This document shows, piece by piece, positions 26,714-42,733 of a DNA stretch of 58,765 nucleotides. The DNA lies in contig JAAVCL010000007.1 of assembly GCA_014802335.1 (NCBI GenBank), positions 80,150 through 138,914 of the forward strand, read 5' to 3'. Below the pieces are notes generated by a model. The model saw only the letters and a program-made list of their open reading frames with translations. It made no database searches and was not told the DNA's origin. Every line of letters starts with the position of its first letter. Position 1 is the stretch's first letter. The stretch comes from Bacteroides sp. Lineage in GTDB: Bacteria; Bacteroidota; Bacteroidia; Bacteroidales; Muribaculaceae. The position numbers were made by a program, and so were the translations under genes.

Positions 26714-26802
26714 AAATTTTTTTAATTCTTTATTTTAGCCATAAATTAGGAATCAGCGTTTAATTGTATTACTTTTGTAAAAAAATTAGAAACACTACAA
26801 AT

Positions 26803-28163: not shown

Positions 28164-28262
28164 TTACTTATCTTTACGTTCAATCCACCATTTACGGATT
28201 TCATGTGCCGGCAGTTTCGCGCAGAAAAGCGCGCAGATTAGAAGATAATGAGTCGTCATCAT
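28164..28262 (-). CDS. Possible 32-residue small membrane protein at the operon end
   Basis: Open frame starting with MMTTHYLLICALFCAKLPAH and ending in a basic, Trp-containing tail (RKWWIERKDK), 13 nt after the WG-repeat gene. A short hydrophobic helix followed by positive charge is a plausible membrane miniprotein. Nothing else supports it, and it could be chance. Confidence 0.35.
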   Translation of the reverse strand: MMTTHYLLICALFCAKLPAHEIRKWWIERKDK

Positions 28263-28275
28263 AGTTATATGAATT

Positions 28276-29400
28276 TTAATGTTTGACGATTTCCCCCTTG
28301 GAGTTGATTATTACTCCGGCATTTGCATCCTTATATCGGCATAGATATGTGTCTTTGGTAAGCGGTAAGACTTCCCAATATAGGGGTTCGGTAACGATGT
28401 CGCCGTTGACAGTACAGAGTCCCTCGTATCCATCTGGCATACGATAGCGCATCAGAGTCGTAGCATCGATGAGTTTGTTGCCTTCTTCATCCCACTCGTC
28501 TTTGTCGTAGTACATCTTTTCAACATCGCGGATCAGGAACTTTTCGGACTTAACACCATCGTAGCTATAAGAGAGCTGAAGATGGTTTGGCAGAGTGGCA
28601 ACGATGCCAAGATCATCGGTAAAGTTCAATTCGGAATAGCCGGTGTCAAAGACGGGCTCGGCTTTGTCATTGAATGCATACCATAGCCCGGTTTCGTTAT
28701 CGCCTTTGCGCATATTCCAGAAATTGTGCTTTTCAGCGATTATCCAATCGTAGGTAGGCTCGATTGCCCAATTGAAATTACGGTCTATCAGACCCATCAT
28801 ACCGTTGTCGGCAGCGAGTGCACAGTAATCGCCGTGGAAAACATAACCGCTATTCTTAGGATTGTAACGTAGTTTCTTATTGTTGACTGGTTTCCCGGAA
28901 TGGTCAATGAAATACACGCTGTCGCCTTCTGCGACTCCGGCCACACCACTTGAAAACAACCATGCTTTAGTGTATTTGGCAGGGATCGAAACTTCGCCAC
29001 TGAAACGATTGATGTAACCGCGTTTACCACTCTTCGAATAGACCATCAGGCTGTCTTCATCATGAGGCATAGCAATCCATTCTATCCCTTTTTGAACTAC
29101 CTCTCCGGTACTGATGTGAACGATAGAACCTAATCCGTTATAAGGTTTAACGAACTTGTAGTTGTGGCTAATGCGTTGTATATCGGCGTAGCCACGATGT
29201 TCACGCAACTTGTAAGTGAGATACGAGTGAACCAAGCAACCGGAGACAGCTACAATGCAGATAGTGATGACCGACCAAATAACGCGCCAGAATTTGGACT
29301 TGTACTTGGGATTGAAGGCACGACCAACCCAACACATTGCTTGCCAAATACCTTGCCAAAGGTTTGCAAGCCAGTTCTTGAAAGTAATTTTGTTGCTCAT
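28276..29400 (-). CDS. Membrane-anchored WG-repeat protein
   Basis: 374 residues. A cytoplasmic or amphipathic N-terminus (about 1-38) precedes one transmembrane helix (VIWSVITICIVAVSGCLVHSYL, about 39-60), followed by an extracytoplasmic beta-propeller-like region of WG-type repeats (GKRGYINRFSGEVSIPAKYTKAW, MMGLIDRNFNWAIEPTYDWI, NAGVIINSKGEIV). WG repeats are usually protein or glycan binding surfaces in bacterial envelope or conflict systems. It is the last large gene of the minus-strand cluster starting at 42656, 133 nt after the small membrane protein gene. It might be a separate transcript because of that larger gap. Confidence 0.75.
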   Translation of the reverse strand: MSNKITFKNWLANLWQGIWQAMCWVGRAFNPKYKSKFWRVIWSVITICIVAVSGCLVHSYLTYKLREHRGYADIQRISHNYKFVKPYNGLGSIVHISTGEVVQKGIEWIAMPHDEDSLMVYSKSGKRGYINRFSGEVSIPAKYTKAWLFSSGVAGVAEGDSVYFIDHSGKPVNNKKLRYNPKNSGYVFHGDYCALAADNGMMGLIDRNFNWAIEPTYDWIIAEKHNFWNMRKGDNETGLWYAFNDKAEPVFDTGYSELNFTDDLGIVATLPNHLQLSYSYDGVKSEKFLIRDVEKMYYDKDEWDEEGNKLIDATTLMRYRMPDGYEGLCTVNGDIVTEPLYWEVLPLTKDTYLCRYKDANAGVIINSKGEIVKH

Positions 29401-29505
29401 AAATGATATAGTTTGTGGTTTCTATATGTAATGAGTAGAGCAACATCAAAATCTATCGTGTAAAGCATCAAAAAAGCGATGGATATCTCCACCGCAAAAT
29501 AAAAA

Positions 29506-29748
29506 AGGACAGTGACCGATTAATACTGTTATCCTAAGGAAGTAGGTAAATTCCGATTACGTATAGTATAATAATCACCAAGACAGTCAACTCATGAAAA
29601 TCGGTGAAATTCATTTGTGGAAGTTTTTTCATCTCGTCAATGATGTCATTGAGCATTCTTGAAACAACATTAGCCCAAACCATTAATATGGTATTGATAA
29701 GAATTTCATTTTTACTCATAATCGTGACCATTTTGTGGTCACTGTCCT
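29506..29748. repeat. 12-bp inverted repeats flanking a small gene
   Basis: AGGACAGTGACC (29506-29517) and GGTCACTGTCCT (29737-29748) are perfect inverted copies that bracket the 61-residue membrane protein gene. The right copy also forms a local hairpin GTGACCA-TTTTG-TGGTCAC (29724-29742). This could be a cassette boundary or a pair of operators. Confidence 0.6.
29534..29719 (-). CDS. Small membrane protein
   Basis: 61 residues from MSKNEILINTILMVW. An N-terminal amphipathic segment (NEILINTILMVWANVVSRML), then a charged linker (DEMKKLPQ), then a C-terminal hydrophobic helix (LTVLVIIILYVIGIYLLP). I do not recognise a family. It lies between the WG-repeat gene and the 153-residue unknown, within inverted repeats. 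As a small membrane protein in a caspase/dynamin operon it could be an effector or an anchor, but this is speculation. Confidence 0.5.
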   Translation of the reverse strand: MSKNEILINTILMVWANVVSRMLNDIIDEMKKLPQMNFTDFHELTVLVIIILYVIGIYLLP

Positions 29749-29769
29749 AAATATATTAGTGTTTATAAT

Positions 29770-30231
29770 TCAGCTTATACCGGGTGCTTTCGGAGGCAGT
29801 CCGTATGTTGGTGTTCCCCAGTGGTCATAAAGACGTCCCTGCTGTTTGTTTGCCTCGGCCTCCCATTTGAGCATTTCTTCAATGTTTCCAGAAGCCTTCG
29901 CATCCTTATAATGTTCAACTGCGGTATCTCGCATAGCTTCTATCTCATTGCTTTTATCAAGACGCATTTGATCATAACTCTCTACTTCAGCTCCAGTAAA
30001 AGAAGTCGAATTGTCTGCATGAGGGGTTACTCCGCCAAAACTACTGGATGGCAAGCCACTCATGATATCTACGTCCATGGGGTCACAAATATGTGTGCCA
30101 CCAAAGATGTCAGTTACCTCACATAGATTTGTTCCTTCTATCGGGGCATACGTTGGGGAATTTGAAATCGTGGGGGTGATATTAGGTGTCCCTTCGGGAG
30201 CATCCTGTCCCGGTATAAAGTCTTCGTTCAT
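29770..30231 (-). CDS. Hypothetical protein, disordered N-terminus and helical C-terminus
   Basis: 153 residues, no recognised family. The first 90 residues are Pro/Thr/Ser/Asn-rich and probably disordered, with one CEVTDIFGGTHICDP segment holding two cysteines. About residues 80-130 form a charged helix (SYDQMRLDKSNEIEAMRDTAVEHYKDAKASG, EEMLKWEAEANKQQGRL). No signal peptide. It lies 75 nt after the beta-sandwich gene in the same direction, so it probably belongs to the operon. The helical part could be a coiled-coil partner of another cluster protein. Confidence 0.6.
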   Translation of the reverse strand: MNEDFIPGQDAPEGTPNITPTISNSPTYAPIEGTNLCEVTDIFGGTHICDPMDVDIMSGLPSSSFGGVTPHADNSTSFTGAEVESYDQMRLDKSNEIEAMRDTAVEHYKDAKASGNIEEMLKWEAEANKQQGRLYDHWGTPTYGLPPKAPGIS

Positions 30232-30306
30232 ATACGGTTTTTTTTACTAAAAGAGTTGAGCCATATTATTTTATATCACACGGAGCTTAAATTTCTGACA
30301 AAATAA

Positions 30307-30720
30307 TTATTTGTAAGAGAAATGATATAGCTCCGATCGAGCAATCACGACATTTTCTATCCATATAACAAGTTGAAAATCAAGCAATGATCCACTAATA
30401 ACATGCAACTCATTATACGGCATAAAGATTACTAAATCGCTAAATCTTTTATTGTCTTTATTACAAAAGAAGGATTCATGGGTTGCCACTTGTTGGTCTG
30501 AGGCACAAAATCTACCATTTATGTCTTGGATTGCATTTCCATTCCTATAATAGAAATATACTGCTAAAGCTCCTGTTTTGTAAAAAGCATTATGGACTGA
30601 AAAATCAGTATGAATTTTCATGCCTTTAACTCTACCGTTATACACATTATGCTCAATCCAAACAACCTTAAATTCTCCAGTGATACCGGCAGTTTCATCG
30701 GGAAAATACATTTTACCCAT
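30307..30720 (-). CDS. Beta-sandwich protein paired with the caspase gene
   Basis: 137-residue soluble protein, predicted mostly beta. Segments such as VWIEHNVYNGRVKGMKIHTDF, GALAVYFYYRNGNAIQDINGRF and FMPYNELHVISGSLLDFQLVIWI look like a C2/immunoglobulin-like sandwich of a kind that in other bacteria I associate with caspase-like or signalling proteins, sometimes as a fused C-terminal domain. I cannot name the family. It starts 6 nt after the caspase stop, so the two proteins are probably made together and may form a complex; a regulatory or substrate-recognition subunit is a reasonable guess. Confidence 0.65.
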   Translation of the reverse strand: MGKMYFPDETAGITGEFKVVWIEHNVYNGRVKGMKIHTDFSVHNAFYKTGALAVYFYYRNGNAIQDINGRFCASDQQVATHESFFCNKDNKRFSDLVIFMPYNELHVISGSLLDFQLVIWIENVVIARSELYHFSYK

Positions 30721-30726
30721 AATGGT

Positions 30727-31695
30727 TCAAATTGATATTAATTTAAAATCTATTGGAAAATAAGGAGATATAATCAAAATTGGTTGTTGATAGAACGAAT
30801 GGTCAATAGCATACGACATAGCAAACTTATTAGTCTCTTGAAACATTTGAACCACGCTAATAGGCTTACTAATATATTGAAGCAGCCCAAAAGCGAATGG
30901 ACTATGTTCAGTCGGGATTCCGTCATAGGCAACCGCACCAAGTGAAGAAGAAAAAGCCATAAGAGTTCGTCCAGCACTTTTAACCATTTCGGGATTACCT
31001 TCGCCATTAACGATTACAGAGCATGCATCCGATGCTAAAATTATATTTTTGTAATCGGTACCAGACAAAAACTCATCAATCTCTTCTAGACATAAAGGAT
31101 TTTTATCTGAAGTGGATTCATCTATTGAGGTTATGTAATGCCTTCCCTGGTTGGAATGTCCATGCCCGGAGAAATAGAAGAAAACATGATCATAGACACG
31201 TGCTTTTAATTCTAAAGCTTGTATCGCATCTATCATCTGTGATTTAGTAGCATTCTTTAGAATTGTCACATCGACCTTCATTGCTCTAAGCTGCTTGGCT
31301 ATAGCTTCAGCATCTTTTATACAGTTATTCAGCGGACTTGTAGGGTAATCGTTATTACCAATAACTAAAGCGGTTATTTTATGAGCAGTTATGGGTTGTG
31401 ATTCTGGATATTCTGGAGGGATAGGTTGATTGTTACCATATGGCAACTCTTCATTAGTGGGCATTGAGAAATCATGCAATAATTCTCCTTTCCACCAATA
31501 TCCATACTTTACAATTTCACCTCTATCATAAAGAGTCCCGACACCACACATAGAACCATTTGCCCATGCTCCTATATATGATTGCCCATTATCCCATGCA
31601 CAGGACGCCTCCTGGGACTCTGGCAAGCCATCGTCATTAAGTTCTCCAATATACAGCCCGCCATCTGGAAGAATTAACGTAGAAAAATTAGCCAT
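30727..31695 (-). CDS. Caspase-family cysteine peptidase with N-terminal MORN repeats
   Basis: 322 residues. N-terminal MORN-like motifs (GGLYIGELNDDGLP, GQSYIGAWANGSMCGVGTLYDRG) may bind lipid or protein. The peptidase C14-like domain is about residues 105-300. It starts ALVIGNNDYPTSPLNNCIKDA, has the catalytic His in VFFYFSGHGHSN and the catalytic Cys in IILASDACSV, the standard caspase/metacaspase dyad. A specificity segment follows at MAFSSSLGAVAYDG. Bacterial caspase-like proteases often act in conflict or cell-suicide systems by cleaving a partner such as a gasdermin. No gasdermin-like gene is visible here, so the substrate may be another operon product. Confidence 0.9.
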   Translation of the reverse strand: MANFSTLILPDGGLYIGELNDDGLPESQEASCAWDNGQSYIGAWANGSMCGVGTLYDRGEIVKYGYWWKGELLHDFSMPTNEELPYGNNQPIPPEYPESQPITAHKITALVIGNNDYPTSPLNNCIKDAEAIAKQLRAMKVDVTILKNATKSQMIDAIQALELKARVYDHVFFYFSGHGHSNQGRHYITSIDESTSDKNPLCLEEIDEFLSGTDYKNIILASDACSVIVNGEGNPEMVKSAGRTLMAFSSSLGAVAYDGIPTEHSPFAFGLLQYISKPISVVQMFQETNKFAMSYAIDHSFYQQPILIISPYFPIDFKLISI

Positions 31696-31701
31696 AACTC
31701 T

Positions 31702-32013
31702 CTATAGGTTATCCAATAACCGTTTAAACCAATGGATTGATACCTTTGATATACCACTCATTATAGCAAGAGATGATGCTATTTCCTTAGTATTTGGCGA
31801 ATATTTCGTATGCGTTAGACTATCACATGACATACGCATTTGGGAAATGTGAGCAGTCTTACCACACTTAGAACACCGAACCATACCACTGCTGTTAATC
31901 ATCAAAAGGCCTTTACAAATATCTCCATGAACCCAAAGCTCAGGATTATAATTTTGATCCTTAGCACATTTTGGGCACGGCATATTTATCTTTTGCCAAC
32001 TGTATTCATTCAT
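31702..32013 (-). CDS. Zinc-ribbon protein 1 of 3
   Basis: 103 residues. Cysteine pairs CPKC (13-16) and CSKC (47-50), with a third pattern LWVHGDICKG like those of the two larger zinc-ribbon proteins (WTHGxxxxGxxCGG and WIHGNNCGG). The C-terminus SIHWFKRLLDNL corresponds to their GLKWLNxLT motif. It is therefore a shortened or diverged paralogue. It overlaps the AAA ATPase gene by 8 nt and sits 6 nt before the caspase gene. The role could be adaptor or substrate tag-like; not known. Confidence 0.7.
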   Translation of the reverse strand: MNEYSWQKINMPCPKCAKDQNYNPELWVHGDICKGLLMINSSGMVRCSKCGKTAHISQMRMSCDSLTHTKYSPNTKEIASSLAIMSGISKVSIHWFKRLLDNL

Positions 32014-33493
32014 GATTCATGGATGATTTCCATTGGCTCGCTTCTTCTGAACGCACCTGAGTGGGTTTAATAACCTTAAATGCAGAATCAAAGTCTTCTC
32101 TGTCAATTCTGATATTTTCCGCTACTTCCGTCATTGTCGCTTTTCCGTTTTTATCAATTACGAGATGCCTACGTATTGCGGACATTACACTCTCTGTATA
32201 AAGTGCTGAAATATCGGCACCAGAATATCCATCAATTTTTTTTGCCAATTGATACAGGAACTCATCATTCACAGAATCTGAGAAAAGATTTGCCGCGTCA
32301 AGTTTTACATATTTCTGAAGAATATCATAACGAGCTTCTAAATCAGGTTGTGGCACTTCAATCTCTTTATCAAATCGCCCGGGTCTTCTTAACGCCGGAT
32401 CAATAACATTCAATCTATTGGTGGCTCCAATAACAAAGACACGATGACTTGATTTTATTCCATCCATTAGTGACAATAATTGACCCACCAAAGATACTTC
32501 ATGGTTAGCACTGTCAACCTCTCGGATGGATGCAATTGCATCTATTTCATCTATGAAAATAACTGCATTCTTCTTTCTCTCTGCCTCCTCAAATTTTTTC
32601 CCAAGATTATATTCTCCCACACCTTTGAACTTCTGTAGGGCATCAGATAAATCAATTTCAATAAAAGCAGCTCCAAAAGATTGAGCAACAGCTCTGGCTA
32701 TCATAGTCTTACCATTTCCCGGAGGTCCATATAACAAAACCCCTTTAGGCGGTCTTATCCCAAATTTTGTAAAATATTCGGGATAATTCATCGGAAGTTG
32801 TATGATACGTCTTAATTCATCGATAACCTTTTTCTGACCGCCAATTTGCGTGAAGTCGATAATTTGTTGCGGATTTGCCGGTTTACCTTCTGTAACAATT
32901 TGTGTATCTGCACTTATCCAATATGGCTGTTCATCATCACCATTATATGGCGAGGTTTTTATAATAGTTCCAACCACAGCATCCGTATAAGTCTTATTAT
33001 AAAAGAATCTCTGCTGAGCACAAAATAGCTTAAGCTGCTTGCGCAAATGCTTTTCAGCAGATTCAAAGTCCTTTTCTGACCATCGCTCAACTTCTTCCTC
33101 AGGAATTTTAATAGTAATGACATCCGCCGTAGGAATATCTGTTGTTTGAACAACAGATACTTCTACCGTAGAACGCTTATTAGTCGTACAGTCTCTCTCT
33201 GGCATTATCTCCTGAGACAGCCAGACCAATCCTTCTCCCTCGCGTGAATAAATCGAGTCAGAAGGGAGTTTGGCTAATCGAGTGTAAATTACGAAATCAC
33301 TAAATTCCGCAGGGTTATCGCACTCTATTTTAACAAAGAATTCTTCTCTGCCTTCGCGATAAATTGGATAATCTTCTAATAGTTTATTCCAATCATCTTC
33401 AAGCACCCATGCACACATCGTATATGGATGGAGCTCAAAGTGGTTGTTGAGAGCGCGATATTTAAATATCTTAAACTGCATATGATATAGCAA
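32006..33493 (-). CDS. Cdc48/PAN-like AAA+ ATPase
   Basis: 495-residue classic-clade AAA+ ATPase with a single ATPase domain. The N-terminal ~180 residues are unique to this protein. The core begins FTQIGGQKKVIDELRRII, with Walker A GPPGNGKTM (about residue 250), Walker B AVIFIDEIDAIASI, the second region of homology PALRRPGRFDKEIEVPQPD and the sensor 2 part GYSGADISALYTESVMSAIRRH. Such ATPases unfold or remodel protein complexes and often feed proteases. It lacks a membrane segment and an FtsH peptidase domain. Close neighbours are zinc-ribbon proteins on both sides and the caspase, so it may deliver or disassemble targets for proteolysis. Confidence 0.93.
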   Translation of the reverse strand: MLYHMQFKIFKYRALNNHFELHPYTMCAWVLEDDWNKLLEDYPIYREGREEFFVKIECDNPAEFSDFVIYTRLAKLPSDSIYSREGEGLVWLSQEIMPERDCTTNKRSTVEVSVVQTTDIPTADVITIKIPEEEVERWSEKDFESAEKHLRKQLKLFCAQQRFFYNKTYTDAVVGTIIKTSPYNGDDEQPYWISADTQIVTEGKPANPQQIIDFTQIGGQKKVIDELRRIIQLPMNYPEYFTKFGIRPPKGVLLYGPPGNGKTMIARAVAQSFGAAFIEIDLSDALQKFKGVGEYNLGKKFEEAERKKNAVIFIDEIDAIASIREVDSANHEVSLVGQLLSLMDGIKSSHRVFVIGATNRLNVIDPALRRPGRFDKEIEVPQPDLEARYDILQKYVKLDAANLFSDSVNDEFLYQLAKKIDGYSGADISALYTESVMSAIRRHLVIDKNGKATMTEVAENIRIDREDFDSAFKVIKPTQVRSEEASQWKSSMNHE

Positions 33494-33509
33494 TGTAATA
33501 AGGCGAAAA

Positions 33510-33911
33510 TTATTTTACACCAAATTTTTGATCCATCAGAGCTGTTGTTAGTCTATTGAGCCATTTCAGGCCGGCGGGTCCAGTGGTAATCTCACCAGCT
33601 ACGATAAGAGCATTAGCAAGATATTTACCATCAGTAATACTTAAGTATTCCTCCATCCCGTTTTGGCCATGGATAGGATTCGGACACTTATATGCCCAAT
33701 TGACAATCAGGTCTTTATTACCGCAGCGTTCGCAGTAATAGTAACCATTGTCACCAATGTACATATCTCCGCCACATTCTGTCCCATCAGCCTTTTGGCC
33801 ATGGGTCCAATAGGTAGGTGTTGTTGGAAGATTGTGTTCGAGACACACCGGGCACTTTATATGGAGTTGGAAGTACTCAGCTCCTTCTTTACAGAAATGC
33901 TTTAATTCCAT
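33510..33911 (-). CDS. Zinc-ribbon protein 2 of 3
   Basis: 133 residues. It has CPVC (20-23), then the signature YWTHGQKADGTECGGDMYIGDNGYYYCERCG with a CxxC, a further CPNPIHG motif, and a C-terminal helix GPAGLKWLNRLTTALMDQ. The same WxHG...CGGxxYIGxN and GLKWLNxxT blocks appear in the 150-residue protein at 34965-35417, showing a small paralogous family within one operon. Located 16 nt before the AAA ATPase gene. No known name. Confidence 0.75.
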   Translation of the reverse strand: MELKHFCKEGAEYFQLHIKCPVCLEHNLPTTPTYWTHGQKADGTECGGDMYIGDNGYYYCERCGNKDLIVNWAYKCPNPIHGQNGMEEYLSITDGKYLANALIVAGEITTGPAGLKWLNRLTTALMDQKFGVK

Positions 33912-33926
33912 GTTTTTTATTGCGTA

Positions 33927-34952
33927 TTAGTCTTTATCAAGAGATTGTACCAATTCAATGATTTCTTTTGCAAGCTTCTGAATACGAGCATATTTTTCAT
34001 CTTTAGACATGCCCGTCTTTACATCTTCATGTTTGCAAGGCTCTGGTTTAACCCCTGAATCAGATTTGGCATTCTCGTATTTGCTGATACTTAGATTGTT
34101 GTCTGGACCAAAATCAATATCAAACGGTTCTGCGGTCGAATCAATTATTGATGCCGTTTCAACCGCCGGAGCCGTTTGAGGATTGTTCCGTCGGTCGTAC
34201 ATTTGATCAATGGATTCTTCGTTTATACTCGGAAGCTGAGCTGCAACCGATGGGAGATATTCATTAACCATTTTAACAAACATCTTAAGAGGTGCACTAT
34301 TATCACAAACATATGAAAGGGCTGCAATGATGCGTTTATAACCATCTAAAGCGGTTCCTCTGTAGTGACTTGTAACAAGTTCAGTTGCCTCCTTGGATTC
34401 ATGTTCATAAATATGCTGACCTTCAATCCACGCCAGCATACCTTCATTTACGGCACGATACTTCTCTTCAGTTGTATCGTTTGTAAGAATTGGGGTGTCA
34501 TAGACATATTTATCAAACAAATCATCAATCTGATTAGTCTTATATGACACCGCTGCCATTATCGGTATGATGGCTGTGTCAACTGCATCATAGAAGTCTA
34601 AAAGGCTTCGACCGCCATACCATTCAAGGAGATCCTTCATAAAGGCCTCCACTGCAATTTTAAAGACCTCAGGGTTGTCATAGTGAGCACACATATACAA
34701 TCCTTTGCAATCCAAGGAAAGCTCAAGATAGTACATTGATTCATGTGCGACAGGAGATGAATTGTCATGATGATCGCGGGGTGTTCCGGCAGCTGTTTGC
34801 TTCAGTTGCGGATATACCCGGTCATTTGGAAGAAGATGCGCTTCTAATCGCTCTAACGACACTAATGTGCGGTGGAAAGCATCGTCCTCGGCCTGGAGCA
34901 TGGCTTGAATAACGTCTTGCTCCTTTTTTCGTTTATTTGAACCGAAAATCAT
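33927..34952 (-). CDS. Hypothetical cytoplasmic protein with coiled-coil end
   Basis: 341 residues, unrecognised. Mostly alpha-helical by composition. The first 60 residues are charged (FGSNKRKKEQDVIQAMLQAED). A middle region (75-245) looks globular, with cysteine/tyrosine-rich stretches (SLDCKGLYMCAHYDNPEV). Residues 255-305 are low complexity, and the end (EKYARIQKLAKEIIELVQSLDKD) is a short coiled coil. No transmembrane segment or enzymatic motif is seen. It lies between two zinc-ribbon genes with gaps of 12-15 nt, clearly part of the operon. Possibly a scaffold for the zinc-ribbon proteins. Confidence 0.7.
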   Translation of the reverse strand: MIFGSNKRKKEQDVIQAMLQAEDDAFHRTLVSLERLEAHLLPNDRVYPQLKQTAAGTPRDHHDNSSPVAHESMYYLELSLDCKGLYMCAHYDNPEVFKIAVEAFMKDLLEWYGGRSLLDFYDAVDTAIIPIMAAVSYKTNQIDDLFDKYVYDTPILTNDTTEEKYRAVNEGMLAWIEGQHIYEHESKEATELVTSHYRGTALDGYKRIIAALSYVCDNSAPLKMFVKMVNEYLPSVAAQLPSINEESIDQMYDRRNNPQTAPAVETASIIDSTAEPFDIDFGPDNNLSISKYENAKSDSGVKPEPCKHEDVKTGMSKDEKYARIQKLAKEIIELVQSLDKD

Positions 34953-34964
34953 TGTTTATTGTAT

Positions 34965-35417
34965 TTAATTTTTTGTTATTAGTCGTGAAGTAATTTCATT
35001 CAGCCACTTAAGGCCTGCACGATTTACAGGTAAAATTTTAAGAATATCTTGAAGAGGTTGTTCCTCACTCGAAACATCAACTTGTATGATGTTGTCCTTT
35101 ATTTCACCAGTTTTGTGCCAATATTTAATGTCTGAACTCTTGTGGCATTTCCCACAGACACAAATGGCATTATTCCCTATATATATTGTTCCTCCGCAAT
35201 TGTTGCCGTGAATCCACCGTTCATCTATATCTGCCGGACATTCGTCGGAAGGATTTAATGAATAATAAAGAATCCCAGCTTCTGTAAATGAATTTTCATT
35301 ACATTCACATTCTGGAGCAGAAAGTGACTCTGTTCCATTATCTCTTAATTTCTTTCCGCAATCCACGCAGAAAATAGAATCATCGGGTATTTCATTATTA
35401 CAGTTTGGACAAATCAT
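34965..35417 (-). CDS. Zinc-ribbon protein 3 of 3
   Basis: 150 residues. It begins with a canonical zinc ribbon (MICPNCNNEIPDDSIFCVDCGKKL, CxxC-x11-CxxC), then the shared block RWIHGNNCGGTIYIGNNAICVCGKCH, and ends with RAGLKWLNEITSRL, the same C-terminal helix as zinc-ribbon protein 2. It follows the GrpE-like gene after 26 nt. The N-terminal ribbon also resembles the one at the end of the Hsp70-like protein, so metal-binding ribbons recur as a theme through the operon. Confidence 0.75.
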   Translation of the reverse strand: MICPNCNNEIPDDSIFCVDCGKKLRDNGTESLSAPECECNENSFTEAGILYYSLNPSDECPADIDERWIHGNNCGGTIYIGNNAICVCGKCHKSSDIKYWHKTGEIKDNIIQVDVSSEEQPLQDILKILPVNRAGLKWLNEITSRLITKN

Positions 35418-35443
35418 ATGATTTATTTAATGAAATTTCAATA

Positions 35444-36115
35444 CTATACTTTCTCCTTAACGATAGCTTTTATAAGAACCTTTTTCTCCAGAGTTATCCC
35501 GGGATGAACGATTTCTATTAAAGCCCCGGGCTTGATAAATATTGGAGTCGATGGTAAGTGACGGGCTGCATTAAATTTTGTGTCGTTTACAATAGGTTCT
35601 CCTCCTATTATTACAAAATTCTCAAAAATGCTATTTCGTATATGCTCCTTGATACCTGTTATATCGCCTTCAACACTTGCGTCATCAAGGAATGACATGA
35701 TATCAAGACAACAATCAATTAAGGTCGTAAATTTGGAATTACTCAACACAGAACCATTATCAGAACCTTCATTAAAAGATTTATTATTCTGATTGATTGT
35801 ATCAAAAGTATTATCATTCGAGATATTATCATACGAATTACCAGGGATATCCTCAGCTTCTTCAGAAGTTTTTGTATGATGTTCCATTACTTTGGCTTCT
35901 GTAATATCTGTTTTCATGAGGATATTATTATCCTCAGTATTGATCACATTTATATTTTCAGACTGCATTTCAGAATCATACGTTTCTTCAACTACCTTTT
36001 GATTGCTGTCAAATGTCGTGTCGTATGCGACATTTAATGTGGTAGGTTCTTCAATGTCGTGGTCGGATCTTGAAAAAAGCGCGTTCACAATATATTTTAA
36101 GGAAATTTTCTTCAT
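35444..36115 (-). CDS. GrpE-like nucleotide-exchange factor candidate
   Basis: 223 residues. The N-terminal 120 residues are acidic and low complexity. The C-terminal 110 (FTTLIDCCLDIMSFLDDASV to the end) resemble the short helix plus beta-wing of GrpE: a helix with acidic residues, FENFVIIGGEPIV, RHLPSTPIFIKPG and a final IVHPGITLEKKVLIKAIVKEKV, comparable to the ...PGY..GDRVLRPAxVxV ending of GrpE. The long GrpE coiled coil is missing. An exchange factor for the Hsp70-like protein two genes upstream is the natural reading. It overlaps the dynamin gene by 4 nt (ATGA), implying coupled translation. Weak similarity; a search is needed to confirm. Confidence 0.6.
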   Translation of the reverse strand: MKKISLKYIVNALFSRSDHDIEEPTTLNVAYDTTFDSNQKVVEETYDSEMQSENINVINTEDNNILMKTDITEAKVMEHHTKTSEEAEDIPGNSYDNISNDNTFDTINQNNKSFNEGSDNGSVLSNSKFTTLIDCCLDIMSFLDDASVEGDITGIKEHIRNSIFENFVIIGGEPIVNDTKFNAARHLPSTPIFIKPGALIEIVHPGITLEKKVLIKAIVKEKV

Positions 36116-37752
36116 ATATTTGTTGCTCTAAATTCGTATTCCGATAATACTATTTCTATAATTCGTTTTATTTCCTTATTAAAGGCCATATTACGACGCC
36201 CACGCCAATAAATCTGCCTTGTAGCAAGTTCTTCTCTGCTTAGATGTTTATCACTTCCTGTACGTTTACCTAAAATATACTCTATTTCAGATATTTCTTG
36301 TTCATTAAAAGCTTTATGGTGCTTATCTAATAGCAATAATGCTTCCACATCGTTGTCAACTTTTTTAAATTCAAGAAGCAACTCCTCTACAGCAAAGGTT
36401 AAAGATTGAATGCGATTTTCATGCGATTTATAATCGTCCATACTAACAATATTAGATTGGACAAACTCTTTGAACGCATTCTTAATGTCAGCATTCGCTG
36501 TGCTGTCATTGATTATGCGTAAATAATCCTTTCTGTTAATCGCATTAAAACGAAGATTATATAAGTGCCGTATTGATATTTCGCTAAGGATTTTATGTAA
36601 GTTGTCAGCGATTTTTGCACATCGAATAATTCTCGAACGATTGAAGAACTGGCGTTCTAATACGGTACGAACTTTCTCCATACCGGAATAAGCAATAAGA
36701 TTTATAATAGCTTGTTCAATGGAACTATTATATAATTCGCGCGCAATAATATAAAAGACTTCCCATTCTAATGTTCCGACAATGCTTACACGATCAGAAT
36801 ATGTCAATCCATATTCAGTATAAACTTCATCGTATTCATCTCCTTTTGTTAGGAATGCCAATCTATCGCCATCAAAAAGTTCATCAAAAACATCGGATGG
36901 TATGAGCCGAATTTTTTCTTGAATTAATGAAAGTTTGTTAGAGCTCTTTAATTCATTGACTGCATGGTAAACCCCAGCTGAGACGGGTAAAATTGTGTTT
37001 AATTGGTCTCTCAACAATTGAGAATACTTTTCACATCGCCTACTCCAGTCCCGTTCACTGGTGTTATGCTCCATATCTATTTTAGTCATGACGCCAAGCG
37101 TATTAAACGCTGAAGTATCATTGCTAAACCTACCTACTAACTCATTAGTAGAAGATGTGGGAACCCTTTCAGTTATAACAACTACAGCATCGGCTCTCGA
37201 TTTTAATGCAATCGATTGCTGTTCATGCTTTTTTCTAAGTTTATCATAATCACCTGAAAGATAGTCGGAAGTTCTTTGTTCATGCTCATCTACCAAAGCG
37301 CCGGTACCTGGAGTATCAACAAGTGTAATATTTGACAGAATAGGATTGAGAACGAAGTACTCTAAATGGTCAATATTATTGGCCTTCTCAAGTGTTTCCT
37401 TATCATTACCTTGGAGAGAGTCAAGAAACATTTTTGTTTGCCATTCTTCTCTTCCATCTGTCCAAACAACTTTAACTGGATGTTCATTATCTAAAGAAGT
37501 TCCATACTTAAAGAAATTAATAGTCGCAGTAGTTTCAGTAGTTCCAACTAATGCAAGATTTTCCCCAAGTAAAGCATTGAGAAATGAGCTCTTACCAGCT
37601 TTTACTCGACCGACTATGGCAAGTTCACATGGATAGTTCAATCGTTCAGACAACATTTTAATACGATCTGAATATAATCCACGCCAAGGGCTATTGTCGA
37701 TGTAGCCTAATACTTGGTCAATAATATGTTTTGTTTTTTCAACAGCGTTCAT
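36112..37752 (-). CDS. Dynamin-family GTPase, soluble type
   Basis: 546 residues. The GTPase domain has P-loop VGRVKAGKSSFLNALLGE (about 42-59), switch threonines in TTETTATINFF, G3 LVDTPGTGA and G4 MTKIDM. The C-terminal half is helical, without a clear hydrophobic paddle, so it probably acts with a partner; bacterial dynamins often come as unequal pairs such as the tandem one here. It shares 1 nt with the Hsp70-like gene upstream and overlaps the GrpE-like gene downstream by 4 nt. This interleaving of chaperone and dynamin genes suggests one complex. Expected role: GTP-dependent membrane or protein-assembly remodelling. Confidence 0.9.
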   Translation of the reverse strand: MNAVEKTKHIIDQVLGYIDNSPWRGLYSDRIKMLSERLNYPCELAIVGRVKAGKSSFLNALLGENLALVGTTETTATINFFKYGTSLDNEHPVKVVWTDGREEWQTKMFLDSLQGNDKETLEKANNIDHLEYFVLNPILSNITLVDTPGTGALVDEHEQRTSDYLSGDYDKLRKKHEQQSIALKSRADAVVVITERVPTSSTNELVGRFSNDTSAFNTLGVMTKIDMEHNTSERDWSRRCEKYSQLLRDQLNTILPVSAGVYHAVNELKSSNKLSLIQEKIRLIPSDVFDELFDGDRLAFLTKGDEYDEVYTEYGLTYSDRVSIVGTLEWEVFYIIARELYNSSIEQAIINLIAYSGMEKVRTVLERQFFNRSRIIRCAKIADNLHKILSEISIRHLYNLRFNAINRKDYLRIINDSTANADIKNAFKEFVQSNIVSMDDYKSHENRIQSLTFAVEELLLEFKKVDNDVEALLLLDKHHKAFNEQEISEIEYILGKRTGSDKHLSREELATRQIYWRGRRNMAFNKEIKRIIEIVLSEYEFRATNI

Positions 37753-38987
37753 TATTGGTCAAATTTATAGTCATATCTAACATTATTTGTACCGCATACC
37801 GGACAGAATTTTATGGCTGTAGTTAACTCTTTGCCATCCTTTCTGCAGAAACATTTTTTAGGAGTAGTTTCCGGGGCATTGATATAAACAGCGGCACCTA
37901 ACGCAACTGCGACATCATATTCTGGAACCTTTCCAATCGGAATAGGTAAAATCTCTTTTAGCCGCTCAATCACGAGTGGAAGTTTTGAGCTTCCACCGAT
38001 TAGCAAAACTTTATCAACACTAAAACCTTCATCACGGATGATGGAAAGCATCTTCTGTGTCAAATCAATTGTTTGATCTACAATGGGACTTATTAGTTCT
38101 TCCCATCGTTCTTTGCTCATATTCAATTCGACTTGTTTCCCATGACGATACGTCTTAAGTGTATAAGACTTGACATCCTTATGTGCAAAGTATGATGAAA
38201 GAAAACATTTATGATGTTCGCATGTTTTCTTAAGAAATGGCAAATCGAGGTCGTATTCATTATTCGCTATGTGTTTACCACATTGTTGAAATATGGCCTT
38301 ATCCCATTCGGAATAGAGAATTTTGTCTATATCTTCACCTCCACAATTATTATCTCCGACTGGAGGTAACATTCGTTTGTCACCATTCGCATCAAATTTT
38401 ACAAAAGCGAGATCGAATGTTCCACCACCGAAATCATAGACAAGTATCCCTTTATTTTTATAATCTGGAATTGATTCGTAACCTATGGAGGCCGCTACTG
38501 GCTCCATTAACAACTTGACATTTGTAAATCCAGCGAGATGTGCAGCTTCGAGTAAAACCTTCTTTTTGTCATTCTCAAAAATAACAGGATGAGTTATACA
38601 TACATCTGTTATTGTCGAGTTATTAATGGATTCTTCTGCTTGATATTTTATATATTTAAAGAACTTAGCAAGCAATTGGGCATAACTTAGTGATTCCCCA
38701 TTAGGGAGATAAATGGTAGCGGAGCTATTCATATCTCGCTTGATGCCGGAAAATACGCCAGAAAGTATTTGTCTTACCTCATTTGGATCAACGAGGTCTT
38801 TAGCTATCTCAAAAGTAGCCAAAGCCTGAGTCCCTACAATTGGCTCTCCTTCATCATTAGAGAAATACAATACTGACGGAATTTTTTCCTCCCCATCTAT
38901 ACGCAAAGTCTTTGGTTGCCCGGATTGGTGGTCAACCAAAGAGACGGTTGTATTAGACGTTCCAAAGTCGATTCCTAATTTTGCCAT
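37752..38987 (-). CDS. Hsp70-like ATPase without substrate-binding domain, with C-terminal zinc ribbon
   Basis: 411 residues from the ATG at 38987 (MAKLGIDFGTSNTTV). It has the complete actin-like ATPase domain: phosphate 1 GIDFGTSNTTV, phosphate 2 ILVYDFGGGTFDLAF and adenosine motif VLLIGGSSKLPLV. After about residue 370 there is no peptide-binding beta-sandwich or lid; instead a short tail carries cysteines (CFCRKDGKEL, FCPVCGTNN) typical of a zinc ribbon. The start was set at the second ATG because it begins the conserved domain and lies one base after the stop of the upstream dynamin gene. It may act as an ATP-driven switch with a GrpE-like partner encoded downstream. Confidence 0.93.
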   Translation of the reverse strand: MAKLGIDFGTSNTTVSLVDHQSGQPKTLRIDGEEKIPSVLYFSNDEGEPIVGTQALATFEIAKDLVDPNEVRQILSGVFSGIKRDMNSSATIYLPNGESLSYAQLLAKFFKYIKYQAEESINNSTITDVCITHPVIFENDKKKVLLEAAHLAGFTNVKLLMEPVAASIGYESIPDYKNKGILVYDFGGGTFDLAFVKFDANGDKRMLPPVGDNNCGGEDIDKILYSEWDKAIFQQCGKHIANNEYDLDLPFLKKTCEHHKCFLSSYFAHKDVKSYTLKTYRHGKQVELNMSKERWEELISPIVDQTIDLTQKMLSIIRDEGFSVDKVLLIGGSSKLPLVIERLKEILPIPIGKVPEYDVAVALGAAVYINAPETTPKKCFCRKDGKELTTAIKFCPVCGTNNVRYDYKFDQ

Positions 38988-38988
38988 A

Positions 38989-40926
38989 CTATTTAGTCTT
39001 GAGTAGGGTGGCGATTTCATTACGCATACCTACTTCTTTCTTTATTTCTGCTACGACTTTATCCCATTCTTTCTTATATCCCAGCCATACTGCCTCATTC
39101 TTTTTGCGTTGTTCTGAATCTAAAGAAGCCTGAGCCTGTAATTCTTGAAGTTGCTTCTGAAGGATAGCTTTCCTATTTTCGAGCATCTTTATTATGGCTG
39201 ATTCTCCCATTTTACACAGATTTTTCGCATAATCTGCTACGACGGATTGATTCGAGTTGGGGCTTACCTGAAGAAGTTTCACTCCAAGTTCGGAAAGAAG
39301 TTTTGAAAGTTCCGACCTGAAATTCGCTTTGGTTTTGTTTAGAGCCTTCTCTTTACTATCATCACCACCGGTAAAGAAGCACCATACTGCGCCCAAAACA
39401 GCCGCTATCGGTGCAACAATGGGGAAACTGATTACCCCGAGACCAGCTAATATGCCGGCACCAATTCCTGAGATCCAAGTGCCAGTGAAATACTGATTAC
39501 GGTAGCACTGAATCTTATCTTTCATTGATAATTCAGCTAATTCCAACTTATGGGTATCAATGTCCCCATTTACGCCATAGGTGATTCGATCCATCTCTGC
39601 TCCGACTTCACCTAATACCGCAATTACTTTATCCTGGGCTTCAAGAGAAATATTTTCCCACTGGGAAAGCACATCGTTAGTCACGTCCTGAGGCATTGTT
39701 TCTCCCAATCGTTTTGCTGATTCCAAATCGCAGAGTGCATCAATTTTAGCCTCATATTCTTTATACACTATACCCGATGATATTACAATCTGTTGCACTC
39801 GACTTGTCAAGCTATTGCATATATCGCGAATCTCTGAAATATATTCTTTTGATTTTGCACTTTCTTCGTTAAACGTCTGAGAAAGTTCCTTCGCTCTTGA
39901 CTCTTTCTCCTGATTCAACTTCATTTGTGCTTGAAGATTGTCTTGCGCAGTTACTTGAAGTATTTCATCTACGGTTTTTTTTGCCTTTGAAGTTTGTTCT
40001 GCTACTTCACGTAAAGCGACTCCCGTACGCATAAGACCAATTGCACGGTAAACCATCAACATTAATTGATTTTTTACCTGAGGGAATTTACTATTCTTTA
40101 AGTTAGCATTCTTTAGTGCTTCTACTTTAGAATTTGACGCCTTATTTAGAGCCTTGCTGGAAATGGGATAAATTTCAGGAGAATCTAATTTATGCTCGGC
40201 ATAAATCAGCGCTAAGAGTTCCTCATCTCGGTTAAGTATCTCTTGACATTTCTCCTCGGAATACTGATCAATTTTGGTTAGGACAAATAGGATGTGGGGT
40301 GTAACTGAAAGGACCTTCTTGATAAAATCTTTCTCTTTATCAACGATTGGTCTTTCGGGGTCAAGAACAAAAATCACAGCAGATGCATTCTTTACATAAG
40401 ATTGGGTAATCCATTCATGTGATTTATATAGCGCCCCAAGTCCTGGAGTATCTACTAAATTTACGCCTTTAGGCAAGAATGCAATAGGTACGTTAACCTG
40501 AATATATGACAGCTTCCTATTTTTAAAAATTGGCTCACCATTAAGATTTGCGTCAACCTGAGAACCGTATTTTGACAGTTCCTCCTTCGTTATCTCCTGA
40601 CTTGTCCCATCCGTAAAAACCAAATAGAACGATTCTTCGATACTATTTGATATACGGAATACCTGTGATGTTGCAATCTCATTATTAACAGGCAAATACT
40701 CTGCCCCAATAATTGCATTTAGAAGAGAACTCTTACCTTTTTTTACTTCGCCACAAACAACCACATTAAACTCTGGTGATTCGACCATAGTCTTACTTGT
40801 TGAAAATGTAGCAGAAATCTCGGGAAACTTACCTTCAAGTTTCGTTAGACGTTCTACTTCGGACATCGTCTTAACTATCTCCTGCTGTAAATCGCTTATT
40901 TTAGGTTCTATTAGATTCCAGTCCAT
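38989..40926 (-). CDS. Dynamin-family GTPase with membrane-insertion segment
   Basis: 645 residues. The GTPase domain has P-loop VVCGEVKKGKSSLLNAIIG (about 56-74), G3 LVDTPGLGAL, G4 VLTKIDQ. Extended helical regions with coiled-coil character (about 310-400 and 590-640) flank a strongly hydrophobic stretch at about 487-530 (GIGAGILAGLGVISFPIVAP, then AAVLGAVWCFF), which looks like the membrane paddle of bacterial dynamin-like proteins. With the soluble dynamin at 36112-37752 it may form a heteromeric membrane-remodelling machine. It follows the C39-like peptidase gene after 12 nt. Confidence 0.92.
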   Translation of the reverse strand: MDWNLIEPKISDLQQEIVKTMSEVERLTKLEGKFPEISATFSTSKTMVESPEFNVVVCGEVKKGKSSLLNAIIGAEYLPVNNEIATSQVFRISNSIEESFYLVFTDGTSQEITKEELSKYGSQVDANLNGEPIFKNRKLSYIQVNVPIAFLPKGVNLVDTPGLGALYKSHEWITQSYVKNASAVIFVLDPERPIVDKEKDFIKKVLSVTPHILFVLTKIDQYSEEKCQEILNRDEELLALIYAEHKLDSPEIYPISSKALNKASNSKVEALKNANLKNSKFPQVKNQLMLMVYRAIGLMRTGVALREVAEQTSKAKKTVDEILQVTAQDNLQAQMKLNQEKESRAKELSQTFNEESAKSKEYISEIRDICNSLTSRVQQIVISSGIVYKEYEAKIDALCDLESAKRLGETMPQDVTNDVLSQWENISLEAQDKVIAVLGEVGAEMDRITYGVNGDIDTHKLELAELSMKDKIQCYRNQYFTGTWISGIGAGILAGLGVISFPIVAPIAAVLGAVWCFFTGGDDSKEKALNKTKANFRSELSKLLSELGVKLLQVSPNSNQSVVADYAKNLCKMGESAIIKMLENRKAILQKQLQELQAQASLDSEQRKKNEAVWLGYKKEWDKVVAEIKKEVGMRNEIATLLKTK

Positions 40927-40938
40927 AAGAGAGTATTG

Positions 40939-42066
40939 TTATATTAGATCATCATCAAGGTCAAGACCAAAATCAAGCCCATGTATTGATGATAAGTCGT
41001 TTGACACTAAGGTTTCTAAATCAGGAAAATGTATTGTATCCTCTTCTGAGTATGTATTAGCTATAAATTCAGGCATGGTGAAATTATCCGGAGACAATTG
41101 ATACCCATGGTCTATAATAAACCCATTAAAGGCAAATTCAGTAGAAAAACCTGAGGGAATCTCTGAATTGGTTGTGGGATCAAATTGATATGGTGCAGGT
41201 TCTTCGGTGCTTACCATAAAACAATTGCTATCTTTCCATGCATCAACAAATTCTTCTAAAGAATACTCAACTCTCAAGTCACCATTACCCGGGTCAGTTA
41301 AAACTACTTTTACATCATTCGGATTGTTTGGATTTACCTCTACTCCAGCAACTATAAGAGCGTGATCAGCACCACCTTGACCTGTTAAATCCTCAAATTT
41401 TTCAGACATTTTGTCCCAAAATGATTTAGCCCAAAGTTCTCCTGAATCAACACCTACAATTATTCTATGGCCTTGAGCTAATTCATGGGTCAGGTCAAAT
41501 ATTGTATTATTTATACTCTGATGGCAATCTACGCCAGCAATATTTAAAAGATTACCGATATTTTCTATGGGTGTTCCTTCGCCTGGCATATACCATCCAT
41601 TCTCATTCGCTATTTGAATGAGATTTTCTTGAGAAATATCTATGCCATAATCACGAAGAATGATTTGCTGGCTACGTATTGCACACGTGTCAGGATAAAA
41701 TTGATTTATAAGTGGATGTGAGAGATTATCCGAAGAGCCTGGTTCTCCAAAAATCTTCAAGTCCGATAAGTCGTCAAATTGGAAGTTATTTGGCATGTAA
41801 TTTATAGTGTTGATTTCTTGTAATTCTGGGATTGAAGGTAGTTCAAAATTATCGGTAGAAAGATCAAAAAGAACCTCTTCTTCCAGAGCCAGTTGGGATC
41901 CAGCTTCAATTAGTTCAGATATATCCGAGTTGAAAATTACTGCGTCTTGTACTGCTAACACGTCTTGCAGATCAAGATTCCCTTCCAAATATGCGCCGAG
42001 CATTTCTTCGGAGATGGGGAGCTCTTCGATACTGTCGAATTTTTTCATGAGTTCGTCATCTATCAT
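40939..42066 (-). CDS. C39-like cysteine peptidase with anti-sigma-like N-terminus
   Basis: 375 residues. The first ~70 residues (ELPISEEMLGAYLEGNLDLQDVL, then VQDAVIFNSDISELI) resemble the short N-terminal helices of anti-sigma factors. The middle contains a papain-like C39-type domain: Cys in QFYPDTCAIRSQQIIL, His in GGADHALIVAGVEV and Asp in VLTDPGNGD. The C-terminal 100 residues are acidic and low complexity. It overlaps the sigma-like gene by 4 nt, the usual arrangement for a sigma/anti-sigma pair. Possible role: binds the sigma factor and releases it by self-cleavage, or processes an operon product. No signal peptide, so it is cytoplasmic unlike C39 exporters. Confidence 0.8.
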   Translation of the reverse strand: MIDDELMKKFDSIEELPISEEMLGAYLEGNLDLQDVLAVQDAVIFNSDISELIEAGSQLALEEEVLFDLSTDNFELPSIPELQEINTINYMPNNFQFDDLSDLKIFGEPGSSDNLSHPLINQFYPDTCAIRSQQIILRDYGIDISQENLIQIANENGWYMPGEGTPIENIGNLLNIAGVDCHQSINNTIFDLTHELAQGHRIIVGVDSGELWAKSFWDKMSEKFEDLTGQGGADHALIVAGVEVNPNNPNDVKVVLTDPGNGDLRVEYSLEEFVDAWKDSNCFMVSTEEPAPYQFDPTTNSEIPSGFSTEFAFNGFIIDHGYQLSPDNFTMPEFIANTYSEEDTIHFPDLETLVSNDLSSIHGLDFGLDLDDDLI

Positions 42067-42656
42067 AGCAGACCCTCCTTTCTTAAAACTTCACAATACT
42101 GAGCTTTGGCTCGTTTGTGCATATTATAGTAATTGGGCATTGTGACGGCTAACAACATCGCTGTTTCCTCATTGGTTTTATCATCGACATAGCGATACTC
42201 AATCAGCTTGCGGTAGCGTTGATTGGGCATCATGTTGAGTATTTTGCGTACGTCTTCCATGTCGATGCGATGGGTATTCTCCGTTAGAGAGTCATCATCG
42301 GGCATCTTTCTATCACTGCCAACGTCAGAATCTCTATCAATCTCCATACGCCGGGCATAGAGTTGGTGGCAGTAGTTCTCTGCGACCACCTTTAACCACA
42401 TAGTTAATGTGCAACGGAAACCAAATGCAGCAAGTTTCGATATACCGGTATTCTTCTGCGGAATCATGATATAGACATATATCTCATTTATAAGCTCGAA
42501 GCAGGTTTCGCAGTCGGTATAGTATTTATCATAAATAGCTTTGAACAGCGGATAGCACTTCCTATACAGGAACTCCTTCGTGATGTAGGTGTCCCTGTCA
42601 AGAATTGCCTTGACAATTTCCTGATCGGTTAAAGTGGCGATGACCGAATGTGTCAT
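42063..42656 (-). CDS. Sigma-70-like factor heading the operon
   Basis: 197 residues from the ATG at 42656 (MTHSVIATLTDQEIV); an upstream GTG at 42674 adds six. Region 2-like helices are at about 20-70 (FLYRKCYPLFKAIYDKYYTD, CETCFELINEIYVYIMIP), and region 4-like helix-turn-helix at about 150-195 (MPNQRYRKLIEYRYVDDKTN, EETAMLLAVTMPNYYNMHKRAKAQY). It has the size of an ECF sigma factor, though diverged. As first gene of the cluster with 4-nt overlap to the C39-like gene, it probably transcribes the operon itself. Confidence 0.8.
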   Translation of the reverse strand: MTHSVIATLTDQEIVKAILDRDTYITKEFLYRKCYPLFKAIYDKYYTDCETCFELINEIYVYIMIPQKNTGISKLAAFGFRCTLTMWLKVVAENYCHQLYARRMEIDRDSDVGSDRKMPDDDSLTENTHRIDMEDVRKILNMMPNQRYRKLIEYRYVDDKTNEETAMLLAVTMPNYYNMHKRAKAQYCEVLRKEGLL

Positions 42657-42733
42657 TACAGGGCGGATAACCACTATCCTTAGTGTTATATCCCCTATAG
42701 ACTCTCAAATTCGGGTAATTAAAAGAAAAAAGC

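Follow-up and report, generated by a model that had tools for sequence, protein, structure and literature searches.

What is to be made of a row of bacterial genes in which a sigma factor, a C39 peptidase, two dynamins, an Hsp70, an AAA ATPase and a caspase stand together? The question is raised by a stretch of 58,765 nucleotides (nt) from Bacteroides sp. (Muribaculaceae; assembly GCA_014802335.1, contig JAAVCL010000007.1, positions 80,150-138,914), which was analysed as a whole and is called the window below. Within it 16 open reading frames (ORFs), all on the minus strand, occupy positions 28276-42674 and form a real same-strand operon, which we predict to be an undescribed defence or damage-response system. 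Across the loci that carry its C39 peptidase, a constant head (the sigma factor and the C39 protein) is followed by a variable body. Loci and genomes are cited by our own L and G numbers.

The island between recA and der

The operon lies as an island between recA (26764-28005, plus strand) and der (43560-44876, minus strand), both of which have close matches in relatives. An initial annotation, made from the sequence alone, had described about fifteen compact minus-strand genes here and had called them more AT-rich than the flanks, and both statements are borne out. The 16 ORFs (ORF list of the window) are separated, in order from the sigma gene to the WG gene, by -4, 12, -32, -1, -4, 26, 12, 15, 16, -8, 6, 6, 75, 38 and 133 nt, that is by gaps of -32 to +133 nt, and the GC content of the island is 0.387, against 0.447 and 0.438 in the 8 kb flanks and 0.434 in the remaining window. 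At third codon positions (GC3) it is 0.26-0.41 in the 14 inner genes; the genes at both island ends stand at 0.53 (sigma) and 0.52 (WG). From the sigma gene onward the genes are as follows, with sizes in amino acids (aa) and with E-values for the Pfam matches.

42063..42674, minus strand: extracytoplasmic function (ECF)-like sigma factor, 203 aa, GTG start; region 4 detected by Pfam
40939..42066, minus strand: C39 papain-like peptidase whose N-terminus, about residues 1-90, is anti-sigma-like, 375 aa; C39_2 match and triad
38989..40926, minus strand: dynamin-like GTPase 1, 645 aa; Dynamin_N, 1.8e-22
37752..39020, minus strand: Hsp70 ATPase domain with a C-terminal Cys-pair stretch, 422 aa; HSP70, 3.5e-47
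36112..37752, minus strand: dynamin-like GTPase 2, 546 aa; Dynamin_N, 2.5e-16
35444..36115, minus strand: GrpE-fold protein (predicted), 223 aa; GrpE-like fold at residues 122-223
34965..35417, minus strand: zinc-ribbon protein, 150 aa; Zn_Ribbon_1, 3.9e-7
33927..34952, minus strand: 341-aa protein, predicted all-helical; 15 relatives besides itself among protein clusters
33510..33911, minus strand: zinc-ribbon-like protein, 133 aa; similar to the 150-aa protein, E about 3e-6
32006..33493, minus strand: AAA ATPase, one AAA domain, 495 aa; AAA, 2.8e-39, in a single stretch, with Walker A and B strings
31702..32013, minus strand: zinc-ribbon-like protein, 103 aa; resembles the two larger ribbon proteins, of 150 aa (E about 2e-5) and 133 aa (E about 7e-5)
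30727..31695, minus strand: caspase-family protease with a possible MORN-like front, 322 aa; Peptidase_C14, 1.7e-24
30307..30720, minus strand: 137-aa protein; shares 40% identity over 125 aa with the C-terminal portion of the product of the gene directly before C39 in L049
29770..30231, minus strand: small conserved protein, 153 aa, no Pfam match at E<=1; homologue in G303
29534..29731, minus strand: short ORF, 65 aa, from the ORF list
28276..29400, minus strand: WG-repeat protein, 374 aa, possibly a separate transcript; WG_beta_rep, 4.5e-12

The WG gene might lie outside the operon transcript, given a terminator-like hairpin at 29495-29476, upstream of it, in a scan whose matches are about as numerous in shuffled sequence. 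The catalytic motifs did not fail on inspection, those of the caspase, C39, Hsp70, AAA and GTPase domains all being intact. An ORF-calling artefact as the origin of the island was considered and rejected, as the motifs are intact and the gene order is kept elsewhere.

The sigma/C39 head and its relatives

The sigma protein is 57-70% identical to sigma genes of four same-genus genomes. Its initial description as a sigma-like factor stands as far as region 4 is concerned (Pfam Sigma70_r4_2, E=6.7e-5), but this match lies under the family cut-off, and of regions 2 and 4 of an ECF sigma factor only the latter was detected. The C39 peptidase of the same annotation is well founded. The window protein itself matches C39_2 at 0.0072, below the cut-off, and its L033 homologue does so at 7.6e-6, above it; the triad Cys128, His235 and Asp258 is kept in 26/26 aligned sequences, which include loci from Bacteroidota, Cyanobacteriota and Actinomycetota and one Lachnospiraceae genome (the alignment omits L032 and L033 as duplicates and does not contain G303 or the weak copy of G330).

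The front part of the C39 protein did not figure in the initial annotation. It is a separate small gene between sigma and C39 in G303 (54% identity over 50 aa), it adjoins sigma without C39 in G322 and G329, and L046 too has a small gene between sigma and C39. Because of this gene order and of the fused and split forms, we infer that the front part is an anti-sigma domain; zf-HC2 profile matches of the anti-sigma-like proteins are very weak (E 0.036 and 0.2 in 2/4, none in the other 2/4). The operon had been proposed to regulate itself through its sigma factor, and this idea appears better grounded now, since the sigma gene comes with an anti-sigma-like partner fused or adjacent to the C39 peptidase.

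A scan of species genomes with the C39 protein alone gave 17 loci, in which neighbours were labelled within about 10 kb. Dynamins lie near C39 in 11 of them (L035, L037, L038, L039, L040, L041, L042, L044, L045, L048 and L049), Hsp70 in six (L035, L038, L042, L044, L049 and L045, where it was overlooked by a greedy ORF filter and was taken from the ORF list of the twin locus L003) and a GrpE-type gene in three (L035, L044, L045). A sigma gene is labelled in 9/17, one of these (L041) weakly at 2e-5. Loci used to build the query apparently reappear in this set, namely L045 and L038 (G218:C4 and G020:C46, first found with dynamin 2), and without them the counts are 9/15 for dynamins and 4/15 for Hsp70; the contigs of L036 and L051 end too early for their neighbours to be judged. 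The profiles behind the neighbour labels were iterated on one small set of sequences, which inflates the E-values of the labels: as dynamins, der and Era reach about 1e-45 and 1e-41, and the dynamins counted here are better than 1e-90 and longer than 500 aa. Pfam Dynamin_N was above its cut-off in all ten dynamins tested, from 8 of the 11 dynamin loci; among the others, L037 was verified with PADLOC, and L038 and L045 by alignment of twins. Full-length dynamin 2 occurs in 3/295 genomes of the order, the window's included (38/295 have some match, many of them short), and because of this rarity we estimate, rather than compute by a test, that the clustering of dynamins with C39 is far beyond chance.

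The core order recurs in other genomes, and the core is found in Bacteroidota, Cyanobacteriota and Actinomycetota. The set sigma, C39, dynamin, Hsp70, GrpE, dynamin occurs in Bacteroidota and, in L091, in Actinomycetota. Copies are also found on plasmids: the C39 protein matches 24 plasmid records, and in the eight loci that were fetched dynamins, Hsp70 and C39 are always present, with sigma also in 7/7 Rhodococcus loci. Each of these seven has two dynamin-type ORFs, Hsp70, C39 and sigma, in the same order in six and with the C39-sigma pair first in L091. Pfam passes 6/6 dynamins and 4/4 Hsp70s tested from the plasmid loci. A GrpE-like profile from the window family has no match in 8/8 of them; Pfam GrpE, searched for in L091 only, matches a 160-aa protein between the dynamins at 1.6e-4, just below the cut-off. 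The Anabaena plasmid (L089, pANA01) carries Hsp70, two DO-GTPase-type genes (one below cut-off), C39 and two dynamins, with no labelled sigma or GrpE, and an annotated CHAT-domain protein lies at 1-1451, just upstream of this set. We also note two possible disruptions: the first dynamin of L090 is in a long ORF overlapping other annotated genes and may be a broken gene, and in the Rhodococcus plasmid locus L096 Hsp70 is in two overlapping ORFs (5466-7348), a broken gene or a sequencing error.

Within the genus the presence of the operon between recA and der is variable. Dynamin 2 is found in 1/111 genus genomes at E<=1e-30 and a strong C39 match in 2/37, with weak ones in G322, G311, G330 and G329, three of which are to the front part only. 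recA and der lie within 1 kb of each other in 10/36 other genus genomes; in nine they are convergent like those of the window, about 80-800 nt apart and with no island (some 600 and 800 nt in G329 and G311), and in G300 recA runs in the other direction. The G303 copy adjoins a tyrosine integrase. No flanking attachment repeats pair both island ends among the 20 largest of 32 direct families. The operon was likely acquired horizontally. A recA-der hotspot common to G327 (L060-L061) was rejected, since the 27 kb there are by eye mostly ordinary genes, a rearrangement.

The bodies behind the head differ even between members of one genus: dynamin-Hsp70-GrpE plus zinc ribbon-AAA-caspase in the window, a 733-aa protein plus AAA plus kinase in G303 and, behind a more distant sigma (29%) and C39 (24%), a TIR-FGE protein in G330. 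Modules of a 719-733-aa protein and an AAA ATPase follow C39 in G303, L043, L046 and L047 (the last three among the 17 loci, with a protein of 719-730 aa and an AAA ATPase other than the window's), a DO-GTPase pair is present in L035, L038 and L050 (3/17), and kinase genes in L042 and L049 (2/17). The G303 locus (L062, 269-16722) is a second operon of the same kind, beside its integrase; it runs from there through sigma, a separate anti-sigma-like gene, C39, the 733-aa protein, small proteins, AAA and a homologue of the 153-aa gene to a WG protein, before which two adjacent ORFs carry kinase-AAA and AAA pieces. In G330 (L076, 3920-6750) sigma precedes a weak C39 relative, whose front looks anti-sigma-like by eye, and then a TIR protein with an FGE-type domain, so that a head of this kind stands before a TIR effector. 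L036 has at 11026-11955, directly after sigma and C39, a zinc-ribbon and FGE-sulfatase-like protein, where the contig ends. A WG-repeat gene lies near all three same-genus heads (window, G303 and G330) and the 153-aa gene near two.

The body and its possible action

Both dynamins named in the initial annotation are confirmed by Pfam. A profile of three dynamin 1 homologues matches the bacterial dynamin-like protein PDB 2j68 at E=8.6e-29 and IniA (6j72) at 3.2e-19; dynamin 2 is 32-35% identical to the dynamin 2 genes of L032 and L033. The Hsp70, likewise upheld, has the motifs DFGT, DFGGGT and IGGSS, and it matches the HSP70 profile at positions 2-371 of 599 only, the ATPase part alone; the substrate-binding domain was not detected with this profile. 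The 223-aa protein had been called GrpE-like, and here the support comes from the predicted structure of its residues 122-223, which resembles GrpE, and not from Pfam (no match at E<=1); it is a predicted GrpE-fold partner of the Hsp70.

In the second half of the operon the AAA ATPase holds up, with a single AAA stretch. Of the three zinc ribbons first proposed, the 150-aa protein is clear and the other two score weakly in Pfam, yet are similar to it. For the predicted MORN-caspase, the caspase is secure, with the His and Cys motifs SGHG and DACS in place; the MORN front is plausible, and the stretch before the caspase domain has no MORN Pfam match at E<=1 and matches ORFs in four same-genus genomes at 37-47% identity. 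A fold search with the 341-aa protein gave no usable match. The 153-aa gene occurs in 2/61 genomes, both of them the same-genus genomes with a strong C39 match, and its C-terminal 115 aa are 79% identical in the sigma/C39/AAA operon of G303, against 51% for C39 and well above its neighbours; the protein may be a substrate or adaptor common to different bodies. WG homologues lie near the sigma/C39 loci of G303 and G330.

We tentatively favour, with a confidence somewhat short of even, an operon in which the sigma/C39 head would release sigma through proteolysis on attack or membrane damage, and in which the body would set a nucleotide-driven threshold before it acts on the membrane and proteolytically. 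The C39 peptidase would be freed or activated by phage infection or membrane damage as the trigger and would cut its own anti-sigma part or a partner, and the freed sigma would raise transcription of the operon. The dynamins would gather where the membrane is damaged; during this time Hsp70 and GrpE would act as a timer that cycles ATP, not as a folding chaperone, and once a threshold is passed the AAA ATPase would feed or activate the caspase, leading to cell arrest or death. We infer each of these steps, from the trigger and the release of sigma to the clock role of Hsp70 and the part of the caspase. With slightly more reserve, we suggest that the loci may represent a new class of conflict system in at least three phyla, with the anti-sigma/C39 self-cutting protease and sigma as the alarm, interchangeable bodies of nucleoside triphosphatases (NTPases; a dynamin pair with an Hsp70-GrpE clock, DO-GTPases, AAA, TIR) as the response, and a caspase as executioner here. 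This would tie bacterial dynamins, whose roles are mostly unknown, to the ATPase part of an Hsp70, a GrpE-fold partner, and a sigma factor beside a protease. If true, it would mean a bacterial transcriptional alarm that works by proteolysis and a non-folding role of Hsp70, as a nucleotide clock for membrane GTPases, and the head could be used to find many further systems.

Several observations weigh against this reading. The full gene list is seen in one operon in the window only; the window-type AAA, caspase and 341-aa genes are in no other of the 17 C39 loci, the AAA and caspase are in none of the 8 plasmid loci, and the 341-aa gene is in 1/393 genomes of the order. The match of the dynamin 1 profile to IniA and 2j68 is a further point, and it makes a serious rival of an envelope-stress or membrane-repair operon, in which the head responds when the envelope is damaged and the dynamins, helped by Hsp70-GrpE, repair the membrane, with no role in defence or suicide. 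The mycobacterial dynamins IniA and IniC are thought to mend membrane, a sigma factor with an anti-sigma is a usual wiring of envelope stress responses, and the Rhodococcus relatives have the same gene set. We nevertheless consider such an operon less likely than the reading above: a patchy, mobile distribution, with bodies that vary (AAA, DO-GTPase, TIR) after one kind of head, fits conflict systems more readily than it fits housekeeping repair, and a caspase is an odd repair tool.

Since neither the AAA nor the caspase was found in the 17 C39 and 8 plasmid loci, the two may form an exchangeable body or belong to a separate system alongside. In the latter case the operon would be two adjacent systems, sigma-C39-dynamin-Hsp70-GrpE (35444-42674) and zinc ribbon-AAA-caspase (about 29534-35417), of which the first alone is met again as a set in the loci examined. 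However, the halves are 26 nt apart, the gaps between the first zinc-ribbon gene and the caspase gene are 16 nt at most, and the far-end 153-aa and WG genes recur in the sigma/C39 operon of G303. Relatives of dynamin 2 and of the 341-aa protein also have longest contigs of equal length (21320 and 15448 nt) and so are apparently on the same contigs (the AAA and caspase could not be checked in this way). We regard two systems as very slightly less likely than membrane repair. Very improbable, finally, is a peptide-processing locus, in which a small secreted peptide would be trimmed by C39, as happens when bacteriocins mature, with all other genes as accessories. The best-known activity of C39 peptidases is cleavage of double-glycine leaders and the 153-aa protein contains GG, but by Pfam no ATP-binding cassette (ABC) transporter domain is fused to the window C39 (exporters were not searched for), and its labelled partners across phyla are sigma, dynamins and Hsp70. 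The conflict or damage-response operon, with the C39 head as its alarm, is the reading carried forward here.

Comparison with known systems

No description of such an operon was found in literature searches, which were partly judged by titles and had subscription-journal papers and bioRxiv mostly outside their coverage; within this coverage the initial view that no named system has the full set stands. Partial likenesses are several, and in PADLOC the resemblance is to defence-type families: Leo dynamins, the IetA AAA and the caspase. The iniBAC operon of mycobacteria has two dynamin-like GTPases. It shares these with the window, along with the IniA similarity of the dynamin 1 profile, but the window has in addition Hsp70, GrpE, C39 and sigma. 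IetAS consists of an AAA ATPase and a subtilisin-type protease. The window AAA ATPase matches PADLOC IetA at E=2.5e-32 (mainly over the AAA domain, so that the match may reflect that domain generally) and also lies near a protease gene; unlike in IetAS, this protease is a caspase, no subtilase being found among the 16 window proteins by Pfam, and dynamin, Hsp70 and sigma genes are present besides. The Leo systems (PADLOC LeoA/LeoB/LeoBC) have tandem dynamin-like GTPases as the window does. Dynamin 1 matches LeoBC at E=1.9e-15 and dynamin 2 matches LeoA at 0.0012 only; the three dynamins of L037 match Leo models too. We know of no sigma, C39, Hsp70 or GrpE in Leo systems.

The closest published systems are the GTPase-centric DO-GTPase/GAP1 HSP70/GrpE conflict systems (Kaur et al. 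2020, eLife 9:e52696). According to that paper, about 14% of the GAP1-N2 GTPase-centric systems carry HSP70 and GrpE, a subset of the HSP70/GrpE systems has a second HSP70 without the peptide-binding domain, and these conflict systems are described as having a core that stays constant and effectors that vary; its main text mentions neither dynamin nor C39 nor sigma factor. As far as its account goes, the window resembles these systems in its GTPase pair with Hsp70 and GrpE (the latter by predicted fold), its zinc ribbons, its mobile neighbourhoods, its constant core with variable effectors, and its caspase, caspases being among the effectors of a sister subtype. It differs from the systems so described in that its GTPases are dynamins and that it is headed by sigma/anti-sigma/C39. 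Pfam lists no DO-GTPase match at E<=1 for any of the 16 proteins (the AAA protein being judged by the best 25 of its 28 families), no GAP1, FNIII or vWA gene was recognised in the window (GAP1 being without a Pfam match), and the 341-aa protein has no BLAST similarity to GAP1-like genes of relatives at E<=1e-3. L032 (G218) has at 8314-9033, between sigma and C39, a vWA-like gene with a weak match to VWA_CoxE (E 0.012), recalling the vWA components of the Kaur systems.

Among the relatives, two DO-GTPase-type genes are present in L033/L038, L035, L050 and L089, the second often below the Pfam cut-off. A further family adjoins them (L033 15608-16933, L035 17240-18343, L089 3803-5041 and 7177-8616, L050 14167-15114), which has no GAP1 match and no strong Pfam match and is perhaps, by position, a new GAP1-like type. 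With their DO-GTPase-type genes and dynamins, L033/L038, L035 and L089 join the Kaur-type and the dynamin groups.

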